Origin: Saururus chinensis
Lineage: Eukaryota; Streptophyta; Magnoliopsida; Piperales; Saururaceae
Assembly: GCA_035235625.1 (NCBI GenBank)
Contig: CP141142.1
Coordinates: 13,422,995-13,486,994 of the forward strand
Reading direction: 5' to 3'
Length of the DNA: 64,000 bases
The notes below the pieces were generated by a model that saw only the letters and a program-made list of their open reading frames with translations, searched no databases and was not told the DNA's origin. A program made the position numbers and the translations under genes. Below are positions 1 to 62,835 of this stretch, piece after piece. Within the stretch, counting starts at the first letter, position 1, and every line of letters starts with the position of its first letter.

Positions 1-86
1 GTGTAGGGAAGTAAAAATAGTAATTTATGTGGGGTGTGCAAAGTGTGGGGAGCCCTGAGTGAATGTTGGGTGGGGAATAGCCGCGT
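1..86. mobile_element. Terminal part of a MULE-like element at the window edge (candidate)
   Basis: Copy A's intron homology to copy C starts at about 87. Before that the sequence is unrelated, and read on the minus strand it begins AACGCGGCTATTCCCCACCC. This resembles the right terminus of the MULE at 51850-61525, which reads GAACGCGTCTATTTGCTCCC. I infer that a related MULE lies to the left and that its end separates exon 1 of copy A from its exon 2. The other end and the target duplication are outside the window. Confidence 0.4.
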
Positions 87-1600
87 TTTTTTAATCTTCC
101 TTCTCTTCTACCTCACCTCAGGAGAGTAGCAAAAAGTAGCGAGAAAAAATGAGTAAACATGAAAAAAAAGGTAGCTGGTGCATGCCCCTGGCCTAGGCTA
201 GCCGCAATCAAGCCGGTCCAAATCTGGGTGCAGCCACGCTCATTCTTTGATAACTAAAAAGAAGAGAAAGTAGAGGAAGAGTAGGAGAAGAAAGCAGAGA
301 CAAAGGAGAATGATATCAGCCATGGGGATGAGTGATTATAAATTAATTGATGGGGGAAATAAGTAATTATGAGGGAACCTCAGACAATAGTGTAGGGGAG
401 GGAGTAACAGCTTTCCTTAATTATTTTGAGTGAATTATAAGTAAACATGCATACATAGAAATTTATTTCAATTTTTTTCACTAAATTTATGCAAAATCTA
501 CATTTTAGGCAAGTTATTTGAAAGTTTTATAATTAGGGTAAGTTTTTTTATAGTTTAGGAAATATAATTGTAAGTTTTTTATTGTTTAGATAAATTATTA
601 TTTAAGCTTTTACAATTGGGGCACATTAATTTTTGGGTCAAAAATTTTACGTCTTCCTTCCTCTTTGCACTTTTGAAAATTATCCTAAATTTTTTTCAAA
701 ATAACCTGAATCGGACACAAATGACTTTTCATTGAAATGAAGACTTTATTATTGTGTAAGGAGAGTTTATTGTTAATTATTCCCTCCGCCCCTATAATAA
801 GTGTAGCTTGGATTAAGAAACCAAAATGAAATCATTTTAGTTCACATTTATTTTCAACTTCAAAAACTTGAGACTAGATGAAGTATATGCTCCCTTTACC
901 AAAAAAAAGAAGAAAAAATGTCTATTTATTCACTTACATAGTATACTTAGGTTGTTGGTTGATTAGGAAGTTTAGTTTATTTCACCAATATTATTAGTTA
1001 TTTATTAAGTTGCAATACAAGGTAGTAGAGGTAAAGGGGGTGCCATTGACACAAATGCTAGAAGGTGTAAGATCATAAAAAAATATAGATTAATATATGA
1101 TAAAATTGATAACTTTTGTTAAATTTTAGTCGGGTAATTGAGTTATTGGGTAAGTGAGGATATTGTTGGGGCTCCAATAGCCCCATTCTTATAACTTATG
1201 TTATTTTCTTGTTGCAAATAAAACAAATGCATAGAATTATTGAGATAGTAACAAAGACGACATTTTGGCTTGTTTGGGTAGGTTTTTTTTTCTACATTTG
1301 GTTATTTCGCTTTGGGAAAATTCAAGAGGTTTTGCAGTGTTAAAAGAGGAAAAAAAAAGAAAAGAACAAGAAATGTAGGAAGAATATTCCTGAACGTCAA
1401 AAACCAAAAGTACTGTGCCCAAATAGTAAAAAATGTAAATATATTCTATTTAAATTGCAAAAGCTAAAAAAATGCTCAAAACATTAATTTGCAAAAATTG
1501 GAAAAATCTTTGAAAATTTAAAAATTCAGTGAAATAAATTTAGGTAAAGGCCCATTTCGCTGAAACTAGCCAAATTTTCATCATACTATTGGAACAACAC
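87..1600 (-). other. Intron (part) of BAHD copy A
   Basis: This stretch matches copy C's intron in two blocks: 87-345 pairs with about 51580-51849, and 337-1175 pairs with about 61526-62365. The two blocks are continuous here, so TATAAATTA at 337-345 is the empty site for the large MULE in copy C. A half Stowaway-like end, TCCCTCCGCCCC, lies at 781 and is shared with copy C at about 61970. A segment of about 400 bp at roughly 1176-1590, bounded by CCAATAG and CTATTGG, is absent from copy C. No coding sequence is seen. The splice donor GT is at 1600-1599 on the minus strand. Confidence 0.7.
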
Positions 1601-11480: not shown

Positions 11481-11520
11481 AAAGCCTCCGCATGTAAGCC
11501 GGGTTACTTGCACGTACGTA

Positions 11521-12129
11521 GGGGTATTAAAGTAAGGTTGAAAGTTCAACTCAGATTGAGCTCTATTCAGTTCAATTCATATTCGAACTCGAAGTTAATT
11601 AAGCCAAACTCTAGATTCATAAAAACTTAACTTAATATTAAATATATTATTTTTTTAAATTGACACATGCATATATTACACTACATATCTATTATTTCTC
11701 TTAAATTTTAACTCTTCCTATTTAATATATTATTTTTACTTTTTTCCTGTTCCAACCGTAGTTGACCAAATTTGTTTGATGAATTATATAATATATCTCA
11801 TGGAGATCTAGAAGTATTTTTTTATGAAACTTTTTTCCCTCTTTCATGTATTAATAGTCCAAATTAGAAAACCAAAATCAACGAAGATTAGTTTTTTTTA
11901 TTTTCTAATTTAACATATTGGATCACTTACTAAATATATTCGTTTTAGTGATTTTTCTCTAAGTAACTCTGAGTCACCAATTATAAAACTAAGCAATGAT
12001 CACAAAGTATAGTAACTCGACTTGGCTCGAATTCGACTCAGCTCGAACTCGACTCGAGCCCGAAATTGAAGTTTCAAGCTCAAGCTTGAACACTCCAAAG
12101 CTCGACAATACTCGGCTCGTTAACACCCC
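11521..12129. mobile_element. Candidate hAT-like MITE
   Basis: The ends GGGGTATTAA and TTAACACCCC are inverted. The interior is rich in GCTCGA/CTCGAGC-type words near the right end and GAACTCGAAG near the left, as in common plant hAT-like MITEs. Flanking 8-mers (ACGTACGT-like and ACATGCAA-like) agree only partly, so the target duplication is weak. The element sits in the intron of copy B and has no ORF of note. Confidence 0.45.
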
Positions 12130-12199: not shown

Positions 12200-12805
12200 C
12201 AATACCCCCAATATTGTTTTCTATTTAATTTTTTCTCTTTCCTTTCCCATGTAAGCCTCCTAATTCTATCTTTATTATCTTATCCCTTTTCTTATCTTCC
12301 TTCTCTTCTACCTCGGCTAGAGTTTTAGGCCAGTGGCCATAGTAGTGTTGGCACATCCCATAGACTACCAAAAAGGAGAGAGATAAAAGAAGTAAACATG
12401 GAAAAATGAAGAAGAGGAAGAGGCCAACATAGCCTGTGGTGGCCAAGCTCCGTGGCTAGATGTAGAGGTGGTTGGACCACACTCCTCGGCCTAGTCTAGC
12501 CACACTCAAGCCATCTTACTACAGCCATGCTCATTCTTTGGTGGCCCATAAGAGAAAAAGGAGAAAAAAAGGAGGAGATAGAGAAAGAGGAAGAAGAGTA
12601 GGACAAGAAAGCAGAGATAAATGTCATAATGGTAGGAGAGGGGTAGATAGGATGCCAGCCATGGGGATGAGTGATTTTAAATTAATTAATGGGGACACTA
12701 AGTAATTATGAGGGGTCCTGAGACAATACTATGGGGGTGGGAGTAACAACATTCTTTAATTTCTTTGAGCAAATTAAGTAAATATGCATGCATAGAAATT
12801 TATTT
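12200..12805 (-). other. Intron remnant of BAHD copy B
   Basis: This stretch is collinear with copy A 87-460. It includes CTTCCTTCTCTTCTACCTC, the GCCATGGGGATGAGTGAT block and the AGTAATTATGAGG block. The site equivalent to the MULE insertion in copy C is uninterrupted at about 12674-12684. Homology ends at about 12805, where a gypsy LTR piece begins. Confidence 0.65.
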
Positions 12806-49856: not shown

Positions 49857-50690
49857 TGATGCTCTTAGAATTTAGCTCTCTTTATTGCAAATGGAATTGT
49901 TTAGAAAATTATGATTCGAATGCTTACGGTCAGATTTTGGGTAAAATGGAACCCCAGTTTGTTTTCTACTTCAAAGAAAGCATAATGCAACATTAAGATG
50001 AGTTGGTTTTTTAAGTGATTCAAGGGCTGAGAGAACTTTACCAGTAAATAGTTAGCACATCTACTATATGTTAGCCTTGCCTTGTAATTGGTGACTTCTA
50101 CTCCATTTTCATTAAGGAAAAGAAGTTGGGCTTGCTACCTCCTCTGCTTATTAGAGGGAAATTGATAATGGTTAGAGCATCTCTAACATGAGACACTATT
50201 CCAAAATCGATCCCGCAGGGCAAAAAAGCTAAAAGAAATGGTGTCCTACCATTTCCAACCGGGCCACCATTTCTAATGTGGAAAGTGGGGTGCCATTTAT
50301 GGCATCTCTTTTTAATTTGGAGACACATTTTTGTTTGTTTGTCCCTCTTTTTATCTTTATTTTCACCCTTCTTTTATCTTTTCATCTTTTTTTTTCTAAA
50401 TAACATTTATAGATGAATTACTTGAGAATCTCATAACTCCAATAGCTCAATCTATTAATCTTATGAGATGTTGCTGTCTAGTCTAGGCTGAATTCAGATC
50501 TCACTTGGAGGAAGACTATGGACATTAAAGAGTAGGGCCACTACCCCAATTTGATGACTTTAGACACCTCAATAATCCCGTTAATGCTATTTTACTTATA
50601 AATTAATGAAGGGGTTTACGGGGTTATTGGAGTAAGAGGGATTATGGTAGAGTGAGGTGATACATAATTTGGCTGAGTTTTTTTATGACT
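49857..50690. other. 3' flank of BAHD copy C
   Basis: No gene is seen. At 50174 the text AGAGCATCTCTAACATG resembles the terminus of common plant MITEs, but its partner was not found. The last 30 bp before 50690 match the copy B 3' flank (8215-8250). Confidence 0.4.
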
Positions 50691-51555
50691 TCAAAGGGAT
50701 GAGAGTATGGACTTAGATGACTTAGTTGGATAAGCGTCCGGGTTGAGCATGGCTTGCAGCTCCACCATGAACCTCTGCATTGCCGGCTCAGGCAAGCAGA
50801 CGGGGACGAGGACCCCTTCCACCCCTTTGCCGTTGCGGAAGTCGAGGTAGAAGCTAGACCAGGGGATGGCCCCCACCCCGGCCTTGGCAGGCCCCCCAAA
50901 TATGGCCTTGCCCCACCCGAAGTCCGCCGCAAGAAACCCAGCGCGCGTGACGTCCGAGACCAAGAACGCGTCCACCGCTGTGATGTGAGGTCGACCCTTG
51001 AGCATCATCAGGTCCGCCACTGAACGCATGTACTCCTCCATTACCGTCTTCTGCACGAGCTCCACAGCGTAACCCAACGGGTTACCCATGAGCTTCCCAG
51101 CCGTCCTAATGGCGATCGGCAAGGCAACGGCGTTTCCATAGTAGCCTGAGGGTAGTGGCGGGCTGAATCGGTTTCGGGCATTTACTACGCAGACCGCACG
51201 CACTTGCTCCTCCGGGTCAGGCTGCAGGGCGAAGGTGCGGCAGCGCCAAAGGCAAGCGGTGATGATGTCGAAGAGGGAGGCAGGGGTACGGAGATGCGGG
51301 GGTAGGTTCTGCCGGAGAGCAGAAACGTCACCGGGACTGAAGAAGAAGGAGCGGTGAACCACGTCCTTCAAGGGGACGACAGCGGGCACCTCCTCGTCGT
51401 ATTCGTGGTGAACCCAAGTCTGGCGGGGTGGGTGCCTCGCGTTGAGGAGTTTCCTTCTCCACAGGCTGCACGGACGGTACTCTCGCGCCTCGCGCAAGCT
51501 CTGCCACCGCCATCATGAATTGGACCGGCCTAACAGCGTCGCACATCGCGTGTTG
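50691..51555 (-). pseudogene. BAHD acyltransferase, exon 2, copy C (near-complete)
   Basis: This exon encodes the catalytic and C-terminal parts of an alcohol acyltransferase-type BAHD enzyme. The HxxxD motif is present as HAMCD (51538-51552), where the histidine is the general base. DFGWG is at 50910-50924, followed by [20 protein letters not shown] and a usual C-terminus with TGA at 50691-50693. Two defects stand out. Compared with copy B, two bases are missing near 51450, where VQPVW-RRKLLN is expected, so the HxxxD part and the rest are in different frames. The exon also begins abruptly at the codon for F just before RCQHAM: about 15 usual residues and an AG acceptor are not found. Exon 1 lies about 11 kb upstream beyond a nested transposon. 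A sequencing error could explain the frame break, but not the lost exon start. Confidence 0.82.
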
Positions 51556-51849
51556 ACAGCGGAAGGCAACATATATATTTTTTTATCTTCCTTCTCTTCG
51601 CCCCACCTGAGAGAAAAAAAATAGGAGTAAACATCAAAAAAAGGTTGCTAGTGCACGCCCCCGGCCTAGGCTAGCTGCAATCAAGCCAGTCCAAATCTGG
51701 CCGTAGCCACGCTCATTCTTTTCATGGCTGAAAAGAAGAGGAAAAGAGGGGAAAAAAAAACGAAATGGACGAAGGGGAAGAAGGGTAAGAGAAGAAAGCA
51801 GACACAAAGGAGAAGGATGCCAGCCATGGGGATGAGTGATTATAAATTA
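51556..51849 (-). other. Intron of BAHD copy C, distal part
   Basis: Collinear with copy A 87-345, including CCGGCCTAGGCTAGC and GCCATGGGGATGAGTGAT. It ends at TATAAATTA (51841-51849), the left copy of the MULE target duplication. Confidence 0.75.
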
Positions 51850-51968
51850 GAAAGCGTTTATATACACCCCCAAATACCCCTCAACACCCCATTGCATAGA
51901 AAGAGTTGGATAATTTTGAGTTTTTTCGGTACCCCAGCCACCCCTATGAAATTTCCCATGTCATTAGC

Positions 51969-52833
51969 TGTTAGCCCCTCCACTTTTTGCTTAGACAAGG
52001 GGGCGGCTACCCCCTATACTTGGCAACGGACAGCCAAGTAAGCTTGGGCGACGGACAGCCTAAGCAGCCCCTTGGGCACGGTTGGATGTTGGGAGCAGCG
52101 TTGAAGCGATTCTGGACGAGTACTTGCCTTGCGGAGCAGGCTGAGGTAGAGTCCCTGCGCGGGCAGGACTCCTAGTGGTGTGCTGGGTGCCACAACACCC
52201 TAGGGACGGACTCCTAGGAGCGCTAGGACACAGGGAGGCAGCACAGCCCGACTCCTAGTACGGGTAGGAGATGATGCACAGGTTTCCTCGAATGACAGAA
52301 CTCTAGAAGCTGATGGACGCTGGACTCCTAGTCGAAGTCGGACTCCTTCACAGGTTTCCCTATTTGGTTGGGGCGACCCTCACAAGTTTCCTAGGCTGGC
52401 TAGGACAACCATAGGCTGGGAAGAGTTGGGACAGGGAGAGACACTGTATTTGCTTGGGCTGGGACTGTATTCCTAGTGGGACTCGAACTCGTATGTTGAG
52501 TCTATATAAGGGAGAAGGCTGGGGCGACCTGGGCATGTTCAGAAACCCAGGAAACCAGAGAGAAAGAGAGAGGACGAACCAGAGAGAAGGTGCTCCCTCT
52601 CTGCCTGCATTTTGGCTGGTCAGCCCTGCCCCTTCTCCCTGCCATTGTAACCGACGGATTGTGTTTACAAGCATTGGGCGGGGCCCCTTTGCACCAGAGA
52701 AGGCTGAGTAGGTTGTTTACTTGTTTTCCCCTACGCATACGAGAGGGAAGGACGGAGAGTTGGCTGCTAGCTGCGTGGTGTAGTCAGGCCATCACAGGCT
52801 GAGGACGCTAGAGAAAGCTCCACCCCTGTGACA
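51969..52833 (+). repeat. 5' LTR of the chromovirus
   Basis: 865 bp. TATATAA at 52503-52509 is a likely TATA box for the element's own transcript. The upstream half has four exact copies of GACTCCTAG (52167, 52208, 52250, 52323) and a variant GACTCCTTC (52341). It differs from the 3' LTR at about 26 sites, with no length difference. Confidence 0.92.
52503..52509 (+). promoter_or_regulatory. LTR TATA box
   Basis: TATATAA in the context GAGTCTATATAAGGGAG. It is repeated at the same LTR position in the 3' LTR (58048-58054). This is the usual place for the retroelement promoter, with the U3/R border downstream. Confidence 0.6.
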
Positions 52834-52834
52834 G

Positions 52835-52852
52835 TTGGTTCCATTGCCGGGA
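52835..52852 (+). promoter_or_regulatory. Candidate primer binding site
   Basis: TTGGTTCCATTGCCGGGA lies one base after the LTR end. It has the TGG start expected for pairing with a tRNA CCA tail, but I could not name the tRNA. Confidence 0.4.
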
Positions 52853-55800
52853 TACGAACAAACCAGGTACGTTTCTGAAATGTTTCTAAGGGATTTGACG
52901 AGACTAGATCCCAGTTTTCCTTGCTGAATTGGACAGCAAAGGAAACACCATGACCGGCTCCATGTTGACACGGTTGACGGAGGTGGAGGCGAAGCTGGAA
53001 GCTTTGAAGTTGGCTCCAGGGACGCTGGCTGATGTCCAGGCTACCTTGCGTTCTGTCCAGGAACGTATTGGAGCCTTTGACCAGCATCTCTCCTTGCTGG
53101 AGATAGGTGCCTATGCGGATGATGCTGGGGAAGGCACTTCCACCGGAGGTGCTGCTTGAGTTGCTGCAGACACCCTTGCTATGAAGGAGTATACGAGGGA
53201 AAAACTGCGAGATCTGAGGACCAAAACTGATGAGAAGGTGCAGGAATTGACAGACAAAATAGCCCTCCTTGAGCGTGCTGTTTTGAACTCATCACCTGCA
53301 GGATCAGAGGCGGAGACTAGGTCCAAGACAGTGCAGTCCATGAAGAAAGAAAAGGTACCTGAATCGAAGTCCTACTCTGGTTTGCGGAGTGCCAAGGACA
53401 TTGAGAACTTCGTTTGGGATATGGAGCAGTTTTTCGCGATTACCCATACTGTGGACAAGGAGAAGGTTATGGTGACGAGTTTGTATCTCTTAGGAGATGC
53501 CAAACTTTGGTGGCGAACCAGGCTAGAAGACGATGCTGCTGCTGGGCGTCCCCCTATCCAGACCTGGGCGTTGATGAAGAAGGAACTCAGGGAGCAGTTC
53601 CTCCCCACGAACATGGCGTGGGTTGCACGAGATTCTCTCAGGAAGCTGAGGCAAACGGGGACAGTCAGGGAGTACGTTAAACAGTTTCAGTCCCTCCTCT
53701 TGGACATCAAACACATGACGGAGGAGGACAAGTTGTTCAACTTCCTGACCAGTCTTCAGAATTGGGCGTAGAACTAGTTGAGGAGGCAGAATGTACGTGA
53801 TCTCCCTTCAGCCATCACAGCGGCTGAAAGGCTGGTTGACTACAAGTCCGAACCAGCCACACAGAAACGAGACAAGGGGGCCTCTTCCTCTAAGGGCGGA
53901 CGCAGAAGGAATGCTGGGAACGGTGAGGCACGCAGGAATGACTCTAAGGGGAGGCGCAGTGAGCAGGCTGAACCCAACAAATCGAAGGGGATAGCCTGCT
54001 TCATCTGCCAAGGTCCTCATCGTGCCAAGGAGTGCCTGAAGAGGGAGAAGCTGAACGTTGTGGTTGTGGAGGATGGCTCTTCTTCAGAAGAGGAGATCAC
54101 TGCCTGTATGAACCCCATGCAGATTGTGGGTGCTATCCGAAAGGAGAAGGCAGATCATAGCGGGCTGATATACGTTGAAGCCGTCCTAGACAAACAGCCA
54201 GTACGGGCGCTGGTTGACACAGGTGCATCCCATAATTTCCTTGCAGAGAAGTGTGTGAAAGCTTGGGATCTGAAGACGGAGAAGGCTCAAGCCCGGATCA
54301 AGGCAGTGAACTCAGAGGCAGCCCCTGTTTTGGGAGTTGTCCATGACTTGCCGGTGCGGGTTGGTGGATGGATGGGCAGAGTGAACTTCACCGTGGTTCC
54401 CTTGGATGATTTCGAGTTGATCCTTGGGCTGGACTTCATGAGATTGGCTAAGGTGTCCGTGATGCCACACCTTAGGGGAATCCTCATCGGTGATGAGAGG
54501 GTACCATGCTTTGTTGCTGAGAACAAAGGCGAGACAGAGGTGCAGGTTGTGTCTGCGCTTCAGCTGAAGAAAGGCCTTGAGCAGGGCCATAAGACCTACT
54601 TGGTCACGATGGTGGAAGCTGAGAACATAGCCCTGGACGTTCCAGAGAAGGTGGAGATGTTGCTGAGCGAGTTTGCGGACGTGATGCCACCAGGGTTGCC
54701 GCAGACCCTCCCACCACGACGGGCTATAGACCATGCGATTGAGCTGATTCCAGGGACTCGTCCTCTAGCCAGAGCCCCTTATCGCATGGCTCCACCAGAG
54801 TTAGCAGAGCTCCTGAACCAGCTTCATGAGCTATTGAAGGCGAGCTTTATCAGACCGTCCAAGGCTCCCTTTGGAGCCCCAGTCCTATTTCAGCGGAAGC
54901 AGGATGGATCCTTACGATTATGTGTGGACTATCGAGCACTAAATCAGATTACTGTAAAGAACAAGTACCCAGTCCCTCTTGTGGCTGACTTGTTCGACCG
55001 CTTGGCAAAGGCTTCCTACTTCACAAAGCTGGATCTCAGGTCGGGTTATTGGCAGGTACGTATAGCTGTGGGTGACGAGGCGAAGACAGCGATGGTGACA
55101 CGCTATGGGCTGTTTGAGTTCCTGGTTATGCCCTTCGGCTTGACGAACGCACCAGCCACCTTTTGCACGCTGATGAACGATGTATTCAGACCCTACTTGG
55201 ACCGGTTTGTGGTTGTTTACCTTGATGATATAGTGGTGTACAGCGCTACCTTGGATGAGCACGTTGGCCATCTAAGGATTGTGCTGGAAAGACTAAGGGA
55301 GCACAAGCTGTTTCTGAAGCTTGAGAAGTGCTGCTTTGCACAGACGGAGATCGAGTTCCTCGGACATTGCATAGCGGACAGTAGCGTAAGGTCAGGGCCA
55401 TTGCTGAGTGGCCAGTCCCGACGAAGGTGACAGAGCTGAGGTCGTTCTTGGGACTTGCAAATTACTATCGAAGGTTCATCAGGAATTATTCGAAGAAGGT
55501 AGCAGCGCTGACCGATCTTATGAAGAAAGACAGGCCTTGGTGCTGGGCTGAGACGTGCCAGGCAGCTTTTGAGCGGCTTAAGGATGCCATATCCTCTGAG
55601 CCTGTACTCAAACTTCCAGAGTTCGATGCGCCCTTTGAGGTGCAAACTGACGCTTCCGATCGGGCGATTGGAGGTGTGCTGATCCAGTCTAATCACCCTG
55701 CTGCATATGAGAGCCGAAAGCTTAACGAGACCGAACAGAGATATTCAATCCACGAGAAAGAGATGACTGCGGTTGTCCATTGCCTTAGAGCGTGGAGACA

Positions 55801-57513
55801 TTACTTGCTGGGTTCAAAGTTTCTAGTCCGGACAGATAACATAGCCACAAGCTACTTCACTATGTAGAAGAAATTCTCTCCCAAGCAGGCACGTTGGCAG
55901 GAATTTCTGGCTGAATTCGATTTCATGTTGGAGTACAAGCCGGGCAAAGCCAACGTTGTGGCTGATGCCCTCAGCCGACGGACGGACCCAGAGGCTACGA
56001 TGGCGGCTTTAGTGCAGGTTGCAGGGGACATGTTGGACCAGATACGTTCAGCTACAGAGAACGATCAAGTCTGTCTCAAGCTGATCGAATCCGTGAAGGA
56101 TGGGTCTACACGGACTTTGGTTGGAGCAGGGGGTGCTGTATGCGAAGGGAGGACAACCCTACATCCCCTTGGCTGGCGGTTTGAGGCGCCGGTTGCTGAG
56201 AGAGACCCATGACTCTGCGTGGGCAGGTCACCCCGGGCAAGAGCGGACGCATGCTCTCTTGTCCCGGAATTACTTCTGGCCGCAGATGCTAGAAGATGTT
56301 GAGCATTATGTACGGATGTGTATGGTTTGTCAGCAGGACAAGACGGAGAGGCGGAAGGAAGCGGGCATGCTGCAGCCCCTTCCCATTCCAGACCGACCTT
56401 GGGTCAGCTTGTCCATGGATTTCATAACTGGTTTGCCGATTGTGCAGGGATTCGGATCAATCATGGTGGTTGTAGACCGTTTCTCCAAGTATGGGACATT
56501 CATTGCAGCCCCAAAGACTTGCAGCGCTGAGACGGCCGCGGACTTGTTTTTCCAGAACGTTGTTAAGTATTGGGGACTGCCTGTGGACATTGTAAGCGAC
56601 AGAGACACTCGATTCACAGGCAGGTTTTGGACGCAGCTGTTCGAGATGTTAGGCACTCAGCTTAACTTTTCGACCAGCAATCACCCTCAGACGGACGGGC
56701 AGATGGAGCGGGTGAACGCTATCTTGGAGGAGTACTTGCGCCACTTTGTCACAGCGAACCACAAAAACAGGGTAGACTTGCTGGAGGCCGCTCAGTTTTG
56801 CTATAACCTACACACGAGCTCAGCCACAAGGAGCAGTCCTTTTGAGTTGGCCACCGGCCAGCAACCTCTTACACCAGCGGATGTGGCCTTACAGCGGACA
56901 GGAGGCAGGTGTCCCGCTGCCTATCACTTGGCAAGAGGGCGGACTGAGAGAATGGAGGAAGCGCGTGACTGCTTGGCCAAGGCAGTCAAGCGTATGAAGA
57001 AGTATGCGGACAGAGACCGGAGACCTCTTGAGTTTCAGGTTGGGGACAGCGTTATGCTGGAACTTACTCCCCAACTTTGGAAGAAGCTGTGAAGGAAAGA
57101 CGTGCACAAAGGGTTGATACAGCGCTACGATGGGCCCTTTGAGGTGAAGCGACGAGTTGGCCAGCTAGCATACCAACTCTTGTTGCCTGAACGCTTCAAA
57201 CTTCACCCAGTTTTTCATGTCAATTTTCTGAAGCCGTTTCATTCGGACTTAGGAGATTCCAGCAGAGGTATTTCGAAGAGAGCACTGCCTACGATTAGAA
57301 CCTCTTTTGAGAAGGAGGTTGACGCTATCCTGGACAGCAGAGTTGAAGGGATGAGCAGGAAGAATAGGAGGATTTTCTACTTGGTTAAGTGGAAAGGTCT
57401 TCCGGAGTCAAAGAACAGCTGGGAGCGAGACATCGCGTTATGGTAGTTCAAAGACAAGGTTTGAGAGTACTTAGCTTCGACGAGGACGTCGAAGGGATTG
57501 GTTGGGGGAGGCC

Positions 57514-58378
57514 TGTTAGCCCCTCCACTTTTTGCTTAGACAAGGGGGCGGCTACCCCCTATACTTGGCAGCAGACAGCCAAGTAAGCTTGGGCGACGGA
57601 CAGCCTGAGCAGCCCCTTGGGCACGGTTGGATGTTGGGAGCAGCGTTGGAGCGGTTCCGAACGAGCACTCGCCTTGCGGAGTAGGCTGAGGTAGAGTCCC
57701 TGCGCGGGCAGGACTCCTAGTGGTGTGCTGGGCGCCACAACACCCTAGGGACGGACTCCTAGGAGTGCTAGGACACAGGGAGGCAGCACAGCCCGACTCC
57801 TAGTACGGGTAGGAGATGATGCACAGGTTTCCTCGAATGACAGAACTCTAGAAGCTGATGGACGCTGGACTCCTAGTCGAAGTCGGACTCCTTCACAGGT
57901 TTCCCTATTTGGTTGGGGTGACCCTCACAGGTTTCCTAGGCTGGCTAGGACAACCATAGGCTGGGAAGAGTTGGGACAGGGAGAGACACTGTATTTGCTT
58001 GGGCTGGGACTGTATTCCTAGTGGGACTCGGACTCGTATGCTGAGTCTATATAAGGGAGAAGGCTGGGGCGACCTGGGCATGTTTAGAAACCCAGAAAAC
58101 CAGAGAGAAAGAGAGAGGACGAACCAGAGAGAAGGTGCTCCCTCTCTGCCTGCGTTTTGGCTGGTCAGCCCTGCCCCTTCTCCCTGCCATTGTAACCGAC
58201 GGATTGTGTTTACAAGCATTGGGCGGAGCCCCTTTGCACCAGAGAAGGCTGAGTAGGCTGTTTACTTGTTTTCCTCTGCGCATATGAGAGGGAAGGACGG
58301 AGAGTTGGCTGCTGGCTGCGCGGTGTAGTCAGGCCATCACAGGCTGAGGACGCTAGAGAAAGCTCCACCCCTGTGACA
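57514..58378 (+). repeat. 3' LTR of the chromovirus
   Basis: 865 bp, the partner of 51969-52833 at a constant offset of 5545 bp. It is preceded by the purine-rich GGTTGGGGGAGG tract at 57500-57511, the likely polypurine tract. Confidence 0.92.
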
Positions 58379-58844
58379 TTAGCCCTAGTGAACAATGCAA
58401 TGATGTATCATCTCCTCCCTTGCATCTCCTACGGTCGGTGGCTATCTTCCCTAAGTTCAATCGCGTATTGGTCTCTTAATCTCATTCTAAAGGGACTATT
58501 TAAAGATTATCAGTGGAAGATTTGTTAGAAGGAAGATAGGGGTCAAAGAAATAAAAAACCAGTGAATCCCTTGACGTCGACCAAGCTTAGGAAAACAACA
58601 TTTTTTAGACTCTTGATCTCATTCCAACGGCATTGTTAGACACATATTCATCTCAAACATATGATGGATTATATATGTATGCTCCTTTTGGGATTGATGC
58701 TTGCAGTTTTTCTTGGTAGTAGATTGAGCACTGTGCCCTGATTTTCATTCATCTTTGGTTATTGGACATTCTAGTTATGGGTTATACAAATACTACTGAA
58801 ATTTTTTCTGCTTCTCCTGGCATTGATAGTTGTGGGTTTTCTTA

Positions 58845-59275
58845 CTTGTAGATTGGAGTTCCAATTATTTCTGCTTTTTAGTTGAGTCATGTGGCAAATC
58901 GTTGTCCATTTTTATAGATTGGTACTCGGAACATATTGGGGTTTTTGAGTTTGATTTTGCTCGTGGCCTCTCGAAACAAGTCACTGATTTTGGAGACAAG
59001 GCATTGTTCTTTGGTCTAGCGGCGTCTTACTGTGTGACATGTTGTAGAAGAAGGGCTGCAATTCAAGATCTATTACCCTTCTTTCAAAAGAGAATACTGC
59101 CTCGACATGGTTGTAGATTCTGTGAAAACTGTGAATTCTCTTGAACATTGTAATAAGATAAAGTACCTACATATATGGATTGAACCAAAAGGGGTCGCAT
59201 ATGGTCTCGATCCTATTAGAGGCAAGGTCATCTTCGAAGTACAACCTGATCATATGCCATGTCACAAGGTAGAGT
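58845..59275 (+). pseudogene. F-box/DUF295 (KIB-like) gene fragment carried by the MULE
   Basis: The frame from about 58845 reads FLVESCGKSLSIFIDWYSEH, then IGVFEFDFARGLSKQVTDFG and DKALFFGLAASYCV. This is the order of the DUF295 beta-propeller of plant F-box proteins, where LVES-G-LL, V-K-DF, W-V-LGDRALFLG and S-S usually follow one another. The F-box itself is absent, and the CIYF-D stretch that should follow is not seen. From about 59045 another frame is open to about 59275 (EEGLQFKIYYPSFKREYCLD onward), which I do not recognise. This looks like a captured host fragment, no longer coding a whole protein. Confidence 0.55.
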
Positions 59276-60009
59276 AGCTGAATAATTTTATTTTCTAGTT
59301 GTGCAAATCAGATAAATGGTCCATGACTCAGGATTGCTTAGTTTTTGCTGAAAATTTTCTCTTTGGTTAGCATGATGACTAAAACTGTTGGTATGTTTTT
59401 GTTTGTTTTTACAATGGCATTGATATCATTTTTTATGAATGATAAGAAGCACTATGTAATTTTTGTTGATGCACAAATATTGAGCCAGCAGGGACTAAAA
59501 ATTTTATACAGAGCTAGCATGTCAAAAATTAACATCGTCATCATCTTCATCTAGATCTTAACAATCAAGGACACAAAATTCTGGTAGAATTTATTTCCAA
59601 ATGCTCATATTGTACTTTGTCAACTTTATGGTCATGTACTATAAATTACAATGTTATTAGTATCTTTCATTTATTATTTTAATGTTTTTTTGACATGTAT
59701 GCATTGGATGCCTATTGAAATATTTGTTGGTATCCTAAGGTTTAGTGGGGGAACATCTTCTCAACCTGGTCCAGGTGTTGGCTCTAAACTTTGGGATGGA
59801 TAGACAATTCAGGTTTTTGTGAATGCTTGGGTATGACAGTAGAACTTGTATCTGAAATACCATAAAGATTATTTCAAATATCTAATCTTTTATAAGAAAT
59901 CTCAGTTAAATATTACATCAATTTATTATGGCTGCTATTGAGTGGAATCTATAGTTGTAGGTGTTTATTTTTGTACATGTCCTCTTTATACTTGTGCCTA
60001 GGAATATTT

Positions 60010-60195
60010 CTCATGGAGCATATCGTCGATCATTCCTAGGCACTATTGATGATTGTCACTTTGTAGCAGTCTATGTAAAGAAAGATGCACCTATGCTTCC
60101 AATTTCAACTACTTGGAGGAGATATCACTAATCGAATACCGATGCAAGGGAGAAGTTATACAAGGACATAGTGATTGATATGTCTATGTGGTAGT
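60010..60195 (+). pseudogene. OTU-type MULE domain fragment
   Basis: The frame reads GAYRRSFLGTIDDCHFVAVY, then VKKDAPMLPISTTWRRYH, a TAA stop and SNTDAREKLYKDIV. The pattern H-FV-V----P-LP----W-R-H is typical of the OTU-like tail that many plant MULE transposases carry. The transposase core is absent. It supports assigning the surrounding insertion to MULEs independently of its termini. Confidence 0.5.
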
Positions 60196-60300
60196 TTACC
60201 ATTGTCGGCAATTTCTACTGTAGACATAACGGAGTAGTTGATGATCGTTTTTGCGATGTGATACATTATTTGAAACTTTAGCTCAATTATTTGGTTAGAT

Positions 60301-60515
60301 TTATATTTTGATTTTTGTGATGGGATACATGTACACGAAGGAATGGATGTGAAGTTAGGTTAAGGTGAAGATGTATATGAAAAAGTTATATTTTGATTTT
60401 TGCGATGGGATACATGTACATGAAGGAATGGATTTGAAGTTAGGTTAAGGTGAAGATGTATGTACAAGACAAAGTTACATTTTGATTTTTGCGATGAAAT
60501 ACATGTACATGAATT
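60301..60515. repeat. Tandem repeat, 85-89 bp, about 2.5 units
   Basis: Units start at 60301, 60386 and 60475. Each begins TTATATTTTGATTTTTGYGATG (with one changed base in the third unit) and continues through GGAATGGAT and GTTAGGTTAAGGTGAAG. No coding role is visible. Confidence 0.8.
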
Positions 60516-60587
60516 ATAAGCTCAATGTTTTGATTAGATCAAATTATGTGTTTAATTTGAAGATAAGTTTAAAAATTGTTCATATTA

Positions 60588-61320
60588 TACCTTCTAGAAC
60601 AGCTCTCATAGTGAGCGCCCCCTGACAGATCACAAAGTCTCATACAGTGAGCGCCCACCGAGAGAGCACATGACCTGCAATGGAGCCCAGCAATCTTTCT
60701 GGAATTTCTCTCACAAGGGTGCCCCCCGATAGATTACAAAGTATCATACGATGGGTGCTCACCAAGAGAGCAATGGGCGTCCACTATGAAAGCAAATGGC
60801 TTGCATTGGAACCCAGTGAATCCTTCTAGAACTGCTCTCAGGGTGGTCACCCCTCGATAGATTACAAGGAATCATACGGGGGCGCCCACTGAGAGAGTTA
60901 ATAGCCCACTTTGGAGCCCTGGTAATCTTTCTAGAATTACTCTCATGATGGATGCCCCCCAACAGATTACAAGGAAGCATGCGGTGGGTGCCCACTGAGA
61001 GAACAGATAACCAGCATTAGATCCCCGACAATCTTTCTAAAACTGCTCTCACGGTGGGTGCCCCCCGACAAATTATAAGCAAGCATACGGTGGGTACCTA
61101 CTGAGAAGAGTAAATGGCCCACATTCGAGCCCCATCAACTCTTCTAGAACTGCTCCCACGGTGGGCACCCCTGACATATTACAAAGAAGCATACAGTGGG
61201 CCCACTGAGAGAGCAAATGACCTACATTCAAGCCCATACAATCTTTCTAGAACTGCTCTCACAGTGGGCACCCCCCGACAGAAAATAATGTTTTATATAG
61301 TAGGCACTCACCGTATAAAA
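60588..61320. repeat. Tandem array of about 105-bp units, seven copies
   Basis: The anchor TTCTAGAACTGCTCTCA or a variant recurs at about 60593, 60692, 60825, 60930, 61033, 61141 and 61245. Each unit also contains GGTGGGTGCC and CCACTGAGAGAGCA. TGCTCTCACGGTGGG and CCCACTGAGAGAGCA are near-complementary, so each unit can fold on itself. The second unit is longer by about 28 bp. The array ends about 200 bp inside the MULE's right terminus. Confidence 0.82.
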
Positions 61321-61534
61321 TGTCAAGATTGTAGACATAACAGTGGGTAGGGCAAACAAAAATGTCCCAAGAACTGGTGGAAAATGAGTAAGTAGGAGGG
61401 GTATTGAAATGGAAAAAAAATATAATTTAAGATGGGGGTATAGATGAGAAATTATTATAAATTAACATGGGGTAAGGGAGATACGGGGTACTGAGAGGTT
61501 TTTTGGGGAGCAAATAGACGCGTTCTATAAATTA

Positions 61535-62391
61535 ATTGATGGGGGAAATAAGTAATTATGAGGGAACCTCAGACAATAGTGTAGGGGCGGGAGTAACAAC
61601 TTTCCTTAATTATATTGAGTGAATTAAGTAAACATGCACGCATAGAAATTTATTTCAATTTTTTTCACAAAATTTATGCAAAATGTATATTTTAGGTAAG
61701 ATATTTGATAGATTTATAATTAGGGTAAGTTTTTTTTATAGTTTAGGAAATATAACAGTAAGTTTTTTATTGTTTAGATAAATTATTTTTTAAGCTTTTA
61801 CATTTGGGACACATTAATTTTTGGGTCAAAGATTTTACGTCTTCCTTCCTCTTTGCACTTCTCAAATTTTGCCTAATTTTTTTTCAAAATAACCTGAATC
61901 AGACGTAAATGACTTTTCATTGAAATGAAGACTTTATTATTGTGTAAGGAGAGTTTATTGTTAATTATTCCCTCCACCCCATAATAAGTGTAGCTTGGAT
62001 TAAGAAACCAAAATGAAATCCTTTTAGTTCACATTTATTTTCAAATTCAAACACTTGAGACTAGATGAAGTATATAGCTCCCTTTACCAAAAAAAAAAAG
62101 GAAAAAAAGATTTATTTATTTACTTACATAGTATACTTAGGTTGTTGGTTGATTAGCAAGTTTAGTTTATTTCACCGATATTATTAGTTGTTTATTACAT
62201 TGCAGTACAAGGTAGAGGTAAAGGGAGTGGCATTGACAGATGGAGAAAGCATAAGGTGTAAGGTCATAAAAAAATATAGATTAATATATGATAAAATTGA
62301 GAAATTTTGTTAAATTTTGGTCGGGTAATTGAGTTATTGGGTAAGTGAGGATATTGTTGGGGTTCCGCTTTCTATGGAACCCCAACAATAC
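61535..62391 (-). other. Intron of BAHD copy C, proximal part
   Basis: Collinear with copy A 346-1175, with only small differences. It ends at the splice donor GTATTG (62391 downward on the minus strand). A 15-bp perfect inverted repeat lies at 62352-62366 and 62376-62390, touching the donor. Confidence 0.75.
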
Positions 62392-62835
62392 CTGAATCAA
62401 GAGCAGGGGGCAGTCGAGGATCCCACTTGAACCAGGTACATCATAAAGAAGATCGTTCGAACCAGGGAATGGAGGCTGAAGATTATCCTCGAATTGGGCA
62501 AGCATGAGGTCGGTGTCAGCCTCAATGAAGAAGATGCTCTCCACAGTGCACTCCATGATGAGCTTCCGGTTGGGGCCTTCCCTCAGCCTGCCGGCGAAAG
62601 GGTAGTATGGAACAAGTGATCTGGATAGGGCATCTCTAATGATAGCCGCAGGGTCTCTCCCTTCCATCCTGGGATCAGCCCGGTAGAACTGGATGTTCGG
62701 CAAATGGAACCTGAGGGTTTCTTGATCGTCTGTATCTGATAGCAGCTTCCACTCATGTGGGGTGGGCGGCGCGATAAGTATCACAAGAACGGGTTCTTGC
62801 TTCCTAACATAGATTTCGAGCTCGTCGGAGGCCAT
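62392..62835 (-). CDS. BAHD acyltransferase, exon 1, copy C
   Basis: These 148 codons run from ATG at 62835 to the phase-0 donor after LLLIQ. They are close to copy A along the whole length: LVPYYPFAGRLREGPNRKL, DLLYDVPGSSGILDCPLLL and YRADPRMEGRDPA are all kept. Differences include one extra proline codon (APPTPHEW). No stop or frameshift is present, so the exon itself could be translated. Its partner exon 2 at 50691-51555 is shortened and shifted, and the intron holds a 9.7-kb insertion. As a gene, copy C is therefore probably dead, though read-through into the intron would give a short N-terminal protein. Confidence 0.78.

Follow-up and report, generated by a model that had tools for sequence, protein, structure and literature searches.

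The acyltransferase cluster and the interrupted copy C

The window, that is, the whole stretch of 64,000 nucleotides analysed here (C3:13422995-13486994), lies in a tandem cluster of BAHD-type acyltransferase genes. The genome searched comprised 516 Mb in 11 contigs. Using positions 281-480 of copy A as query against the whole of it, nine places were obtained from nine candidates, and eight gene copies were distinguished (A to H), all located within 256 kb. Copy A itself and the following copies each gave one match spanning the site at which copy C is interrupted:

C3:13435650, copy B
C3:13321832, copy D
C3:13528451, copy E
C3:13577416, copy F
C3:13546989, copy G
C3:13509967, copy H

The HxxxD motif, which together with the Transferase domain characterises BAHD acyltransferases, read HHAMCD in exon 2 of copies A and E and QHAMCD in copy C. 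The two exons of copy C lie on either side of a large insert:

62392-62835, minus strand: exon 1 of copy C, open frame (Pfam Transferase PF02458, 2.1e-15 on 62404-62835)
50661-51569 (approximate), minus strand: exon 2 of copy C, damaged (from the match to copy A and the frames)

The insert was 9.7 kb long (51850-61525) and carried on both sides an exact 9-bp duplication, TATAAATTA. A sequence-only reading of this DNA had proposed a Mutator-like element (MULE) with a 9-bp target site duplication (TSD) at this place, and the duplication was found exactly where that proposal requires it:

51841-51849, no strand: left 9-bp TSD TATAAATTA of the MULE, single copy in A, D and E
61526-61534, no strand: right 9-bp TSD TATAAATTA of the MULE (sequence match, split alignment)
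337-345, no strand: unfilled MULE site in copy A, single TATAAATTA (sequence match, genome search)
12676-12684, no strand: unfilled MULE site in copy B, TTTAAATTA, one change (alignment)

Copy C matched the copy A query in two pieces (query 1-65 and 57-200), so that the alignment of the two copies broke at TATAAATTA with an overlap of exactly 9 bases (query 57-65, corresponding to 337-345), as had been predicted. By BLAST, positions 281-345 matched 51785-51849 with 92.3% identity and positions 337-1175 matched 61526-62366 with 92.1% identity. Genome-wide, the site was filled in one of the eight copies (copy C only) and unfilled in seven. Copies A, D and E presented a single, unduplicated TATAAATTA with no footprint, copies B and F the one-base variant TTTAAATTA, and copies G and H a common 10-bp deletion located exactly at the target; the target or its one-base variant was therefore kept in 5/7 unfilled copies, with a small deletion in the other 2/7. 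The loss in G and H may be the footprint of an old excision, but it is more simply explained as a small deletion of the ordinary kind. The coexistence of filled and empty sites claimed earlier was thus present, with seven unfilled copies against the two originally named. The site had been described as undisturbed in copies A and B, and it is unfilled in both; the intron of copy A as a whole is not undisturbed, since it holds another element of 1282 bp.

Further differences were observed between the copies. About 15 kb around copy A (-6327 to 8678) appeared duplicated around copy C (46621 to 69219) with an offset of about 53 kb; most pieces of this segment, which reaches past both window ends, were around 89-93% identical. 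The intron of copy B displayed its own insertion of about 610 bp (approximately 11517-12128, ends TAGGGGT...CCCCTA), absent from copy A. Some 417 bp of copy A (1176-1592) corresponded in copy C to a short perfect hairpin (62353-62389; ATTGTTGGGGTTCC with a loop of 9 bases), which may be what remains of a small element after an internal deletion.

The retroelement within the insert

A second element interrupted the first one, also between direct duplications:

51964-51968, no strand: left 5-bp TSD TTAGC of the chromovirus
51969-52833, plus strand: 5' LTR (TG...CA), BLAST match to 57513-58378
53160-57443, plus strand: internal region in broken pieces, with gag, protease, reverse transcriptase, RNase H, integrase and chromodomain
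57514-58378, plus strand: 3' LTR
58379-58383, no strand: right 5-bp TSD TTAGC of the chromovirus

The LTRs measured 865 bp and shared 97.0% identity across an 866-bp BLAST match. Pfam searches identified Retrotrans_gag (4.2e-17), RVT_1 (5.7e-37), RT_RNaseH_2 (2.2e-34), Integrase_H2C2 (4.8e-21), rve (2.1e-8) and Chromo (1.3e-9), the domains appearing in five of six open pieces searched separately; the piece 55868-56209 gave no Pfam match. The earlier proposal of a chromovirus with a 5-bp duplication inside the MULE was borne out by TTAGC on both sides, the paired LTRs and the chromodomain. TG...CA LTRs, a 5-bp duplication, the order gag-PR-RT-RH-IN and a terminal chromodomain behind the integrase are shared with Ty3/gypsy chromoviruses; unlike an intact member of that group, the copy analysed here is decayed, as stops and frame changes occur between the pieces.

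The start of the LTR, at query position 129, recurred in the genome: 40 of 1289 candidates were scored, and of the 38 such places outside the insert 36 began at query 125-131, with starts at 115 and 117 in the remaining two. In two MULE relatives (contigs C9 and C4) the sequence continued across the point where the chromovirus integrated, and an unfilled site exists therefore at the second level too.

Identity and relatives of the outer element

Without the retroelement, the outer element amounts to 3261 bp, distributed as follows:

51850-51968, plus strand: left arm of the MULE, beginning with the terminal GAAAGCGTTTATATACACCCCC... and ending with the TTAGC of the chromovirus (left-end recurrence)
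58384-61525, plus strand: right part of the MULE
58830-59141, plus strand: fragment of a gene of the KIB1-4 beta-propeller family (DUF295), scoring 22.6 bits in Pfam (E 8.4e-5) and so falling short of the cut-off, 27.4
60286-60513, plus strand: direct repeats spaced 85-89 bp (repeat families D6 and D8)
60592-61313, plus strand: degenerate repeats, mostly with a spacing of about 105 bp (repeat families D2-D5)

Positions 58384-60590 matched, over the full length and with 91% identity, an element on C9 in which the retroelement is absent. In five relatives (on C9, C8, C5, C1 and C7), the part of the KIB1-4 domain represented here scored above the Pfam cut-off. Two places on C9 matched at 74%, and one of them overlaps a KIB1-4 gene whose open frame comprises 372 aa.

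For each end of the MULE, 30 loci were cut out from 40 scored places. At the right end, 21/29 other loci reached within one base of the terminus; at the left end, where the set consisted of the 30 loci less the window's own and three that matched the gene flank alone, the match began within the first 11 bases in 26/26 other loci. Both termini therefore recur as element ends, as the sequence-only reading had anticipated. The inverted ends, alike over about 40 bp and found genome-wide, have a common form close to GAACGCGGCTATATACACCCCCAAATACCCC (judged by eye) and mostly start with GAA.

Target duplications of the relatives were searched with a script that considered all pairs of left and right ends sharing contig and strand and separated by 300-20,000 bp. 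It gave 14 pairs, two of them being the same element read in both directions, which left 12 elements. Perfect duplications of 9 or 10 bp, mostly A/T-rich, flanked 8/12 of these. In a control pairing the flanks of different elements, with shifts permitted at both ends and hence some one-mismatch matches, perfect agreement occurred in 0/182 cases, one mismatch in 5/182 and two mismatches in 31/182. The relative at C4:21566514, whose duplication has one mismatch, counts for little, since such agreement is not rare by chance. Two mismatches were present at C1:31425446, whose ends are 15.4 kb apart, and four in each of C9:449499, the nearest full-length relative, and C10:26909910, which amounts to no recognisable duplication. 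A smaller hand-picked set of seven relatives (five perfect, one with one mismatch; control 0/56 at one mismatch or fewer) had left out five relatives with both ends found and is superseded by the count on 12 elements. The end pair of this family at C1:31410054-31425446, with 7/9 flank bases alike, could represent a longer relative, perhaps a coding one.

Pfam revealed no transposase in the frame 58830-59141, the sole MULE frame searched. Transposase domains are abundant in the genome; of 2831 candidate places for MULE transposases 150 were scored, and none of these fell inside the longer relatives, coordinates being compared by eye. The outer element resembles a Pack-MULE in its inverted ends, in the 9-bp duplication of its target and in the internal piece from a host gene family, with no transposase found in the frame searched; it differs from one in that the piece stays below the Pfam cut-off in copy C, the parent gene is at best a putative one, and the inverted ends are short and imperfect. 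The element fits a non-autonomous, Pack-MULE-like element, the gene piece being weak in this copy. It could also be some other DNA transposon that generates 9-bp duplications, in line with the two transposase searches and with inverted ends that match over about 40 bp only. The 9-10 bp, mostly A/T-rich duplications of the relatives, the predominance of ends beginning with GAA and the gene piece inside, as known for MULEs, make this improbable, and 9-nt duplications are described as typical for MULEs in PMC4486113.

The 1282-bp element in the copy A intron ended within the window:

1-88, plus strand: right end of the 1282-bp element in the copy A intron (ends recur in other loci)

It spans -1193 to 88, thus starting outside the window. 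Its ends, GAACGCAGCTATTT and AAACGCGGCTATTC, resemble those of the MULE in copy C and recur elsewhere, with 40 of 154 candidates scored. No target duplication could be recognised in its flanks, which lie in T-runs, so that the recurrence of the ends is what supports its insertion. The idea that this element is older than the separation of A and C, suggested by an endpoint shared with the exon deletion of copy C, was weakened by copy E, which is without the element and has the T-run in which the deletion of copy C ends. A tentative and rather doubtful possibility is that two MULE families, sharing a terminal motif similar to GAACGCGGCTAT, inserted independently into this intron in sister genes, at points some 250 bp from each other; if true, the A/T-rich intron may be a preferred target, and the eight-copy cluster would be a naturally replicated experiment in which insertion, excision and conversion can be compared.

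Order of events and fate of copy C

The intron distance (K) between A and C was 0.0715 ± 0.0098 (27 transitions and 28 transversions), and that between the two LTRs 0.031 ± 0.0062, with 26 differences, all of them transitions. By context, these comprised 9 CG, 11 CHG and 6 CHH positions, against 64 CG, 104 CHG and 318 CHH sites available in one LTR, and were thus enriched at CG and CHG. Such changes resemble those left by the deamination of methylated cytosines and would be expected in a silenced element, methylation being deduced from this pattern; the K value of the LTRs is therefore probably inflated with respect to a neutral clock. Assuming a rate of 1.3e-8 per site and year, it would correspond to about 1.2 million years, an upper guess.

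In the intron, A and C were nearest to each other (0.129 for A-E and 0.125 for C-E), which makes E, with its unfilled site, the outgroup. The D-A intron distance (0.227), obtained from an alignment that includes segments partly missing in D, was left out of the event ordering. In exon 1, the copy nearest to A was not C (0.026 for A-D, 0.030 for A-E and 0.065 for A-C). Copies D and E lay within about 3% of A in exon 1 and were more diverged in the introns, the alignment of the D intron being unreliable. Judged from these distances, the copies have probably undergone conversion with one another, in which case a single simple tree would not describe the history of the genes.

The chromovirus is nested inside the MULE and is therefore the later of the two, and the unfilled sister sites place the MULE after the duplications; this order, which agrees with that first proposed (duplication, MULE in copy C only, chromovirus), holds regardless of the LTR date. 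Alternatively, the MULE could be older than the duplications and have disappeared from the sister copies, through excision or through gene conversion. The 10-bp deletion of G and H at the site and the exchange between copies suggested by the exon 1 divergences are compatible with such losses. However, A, D and E retain a single TATAAATTA without footprint and B and F a one-base variant, an ancestral MULE needs several precise losses as opposed to one gain, and A and C are nearest to each other precisely in the intron where the site lies; we consider this alternative very unlikely.

Copy C itself is damaged. Its match to copy A stopped at 51569 and picked up again at 51578, which equals position 86 of copy A, so that approximately the first ten codons of exon 2, the splice acceptor and the adjoining intron are missing; the start of exon 2 in copy A is VTRLACGGFIFALRCHHAMCD (splice site judged by eye). 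In addition, the frame of exon 2 shifts after SVQPV, where 2 bases are absent relative to copy A. Because the exon 2 start and the splice acceptor are lost and a frameshift is present, copy C is a pseudogene and its insert sits in a relic intron; the sequence-only reading, which spoke simply of the intron of copy C, had missed this damage to the gene. A functional insert, i.e., an enlarged intron regulating or alternatively splicing a working copy C, would agree with the open frame of exon 1 and with the ability of plants to splice long introns, yet it is scarcely credible with exon 2 in such a state.

In all likelihood, therefore, gene duplication was followed by entry of the MULE into copy C and later of the chromovirus into the MULE, with subsequent decay and copy C as a pseudogene. 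According to this proposed history, the BAHD-type acyltransferase cluster would have expanded by tandem duplication and, after A and C had separated, a non-autonomous Mutator-like element with a KIB1-4/DUF295 piece would have entered what was, or had been, the intron of copy C. It was presumably moved by a transposase made elsewhere, and its insertion duplicated 9 bp of an A/T-rich target. A Ty3/gypsy chromovirus later integrated 119 bp inside the MULE, duplicating 5 bp, and the region has decayed since; exon 2 of copy C was deprived of its start and acceptor and acquired a frameshift, and the gene may have died before or after the insertion.

The case had been presented as unusual, a view that does not stand: both nested insertions and comparison with empty sites are standard, as PMC3903597 and PMC4486113 indicate. 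Nested insertions are present in more than one third of the candidate coding MULEs from maize and rice, and in maize most of them are LTR retrotransposons (PMC3903597); the same arrangement, an LTR retrotransposon within a MULE, is found here. The MULEs of that survey had transposase sequences, whereas none was detected in the MULE of copy C, which lies in a pseudogene. Paralogous sequences without the insertion serve as proof of past insertion in the comparison of related or paralogous empty sites known as RESites (PMC4486113), where, as in this work, a filled site is set against paralogous unfilled ones; in the present case a tandem gene cluster supplies the unfilled sites, and the MULE adds a second level. 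A maize tandem gene array has likewise been reconstructed event by event (PMC2686159).

The locus illustrates an ordinary process very cleanly and leaves the known picture unchanged. It is of textbook quality: each of the two insertions can be set against an unfilled site elsewhere in this genome, and the polarity of the MULE insertion is given by seven sister copies. It can be used for calibrating element ends and target duplications, and it shows that LTR dates need care where decay is of the methylation type.
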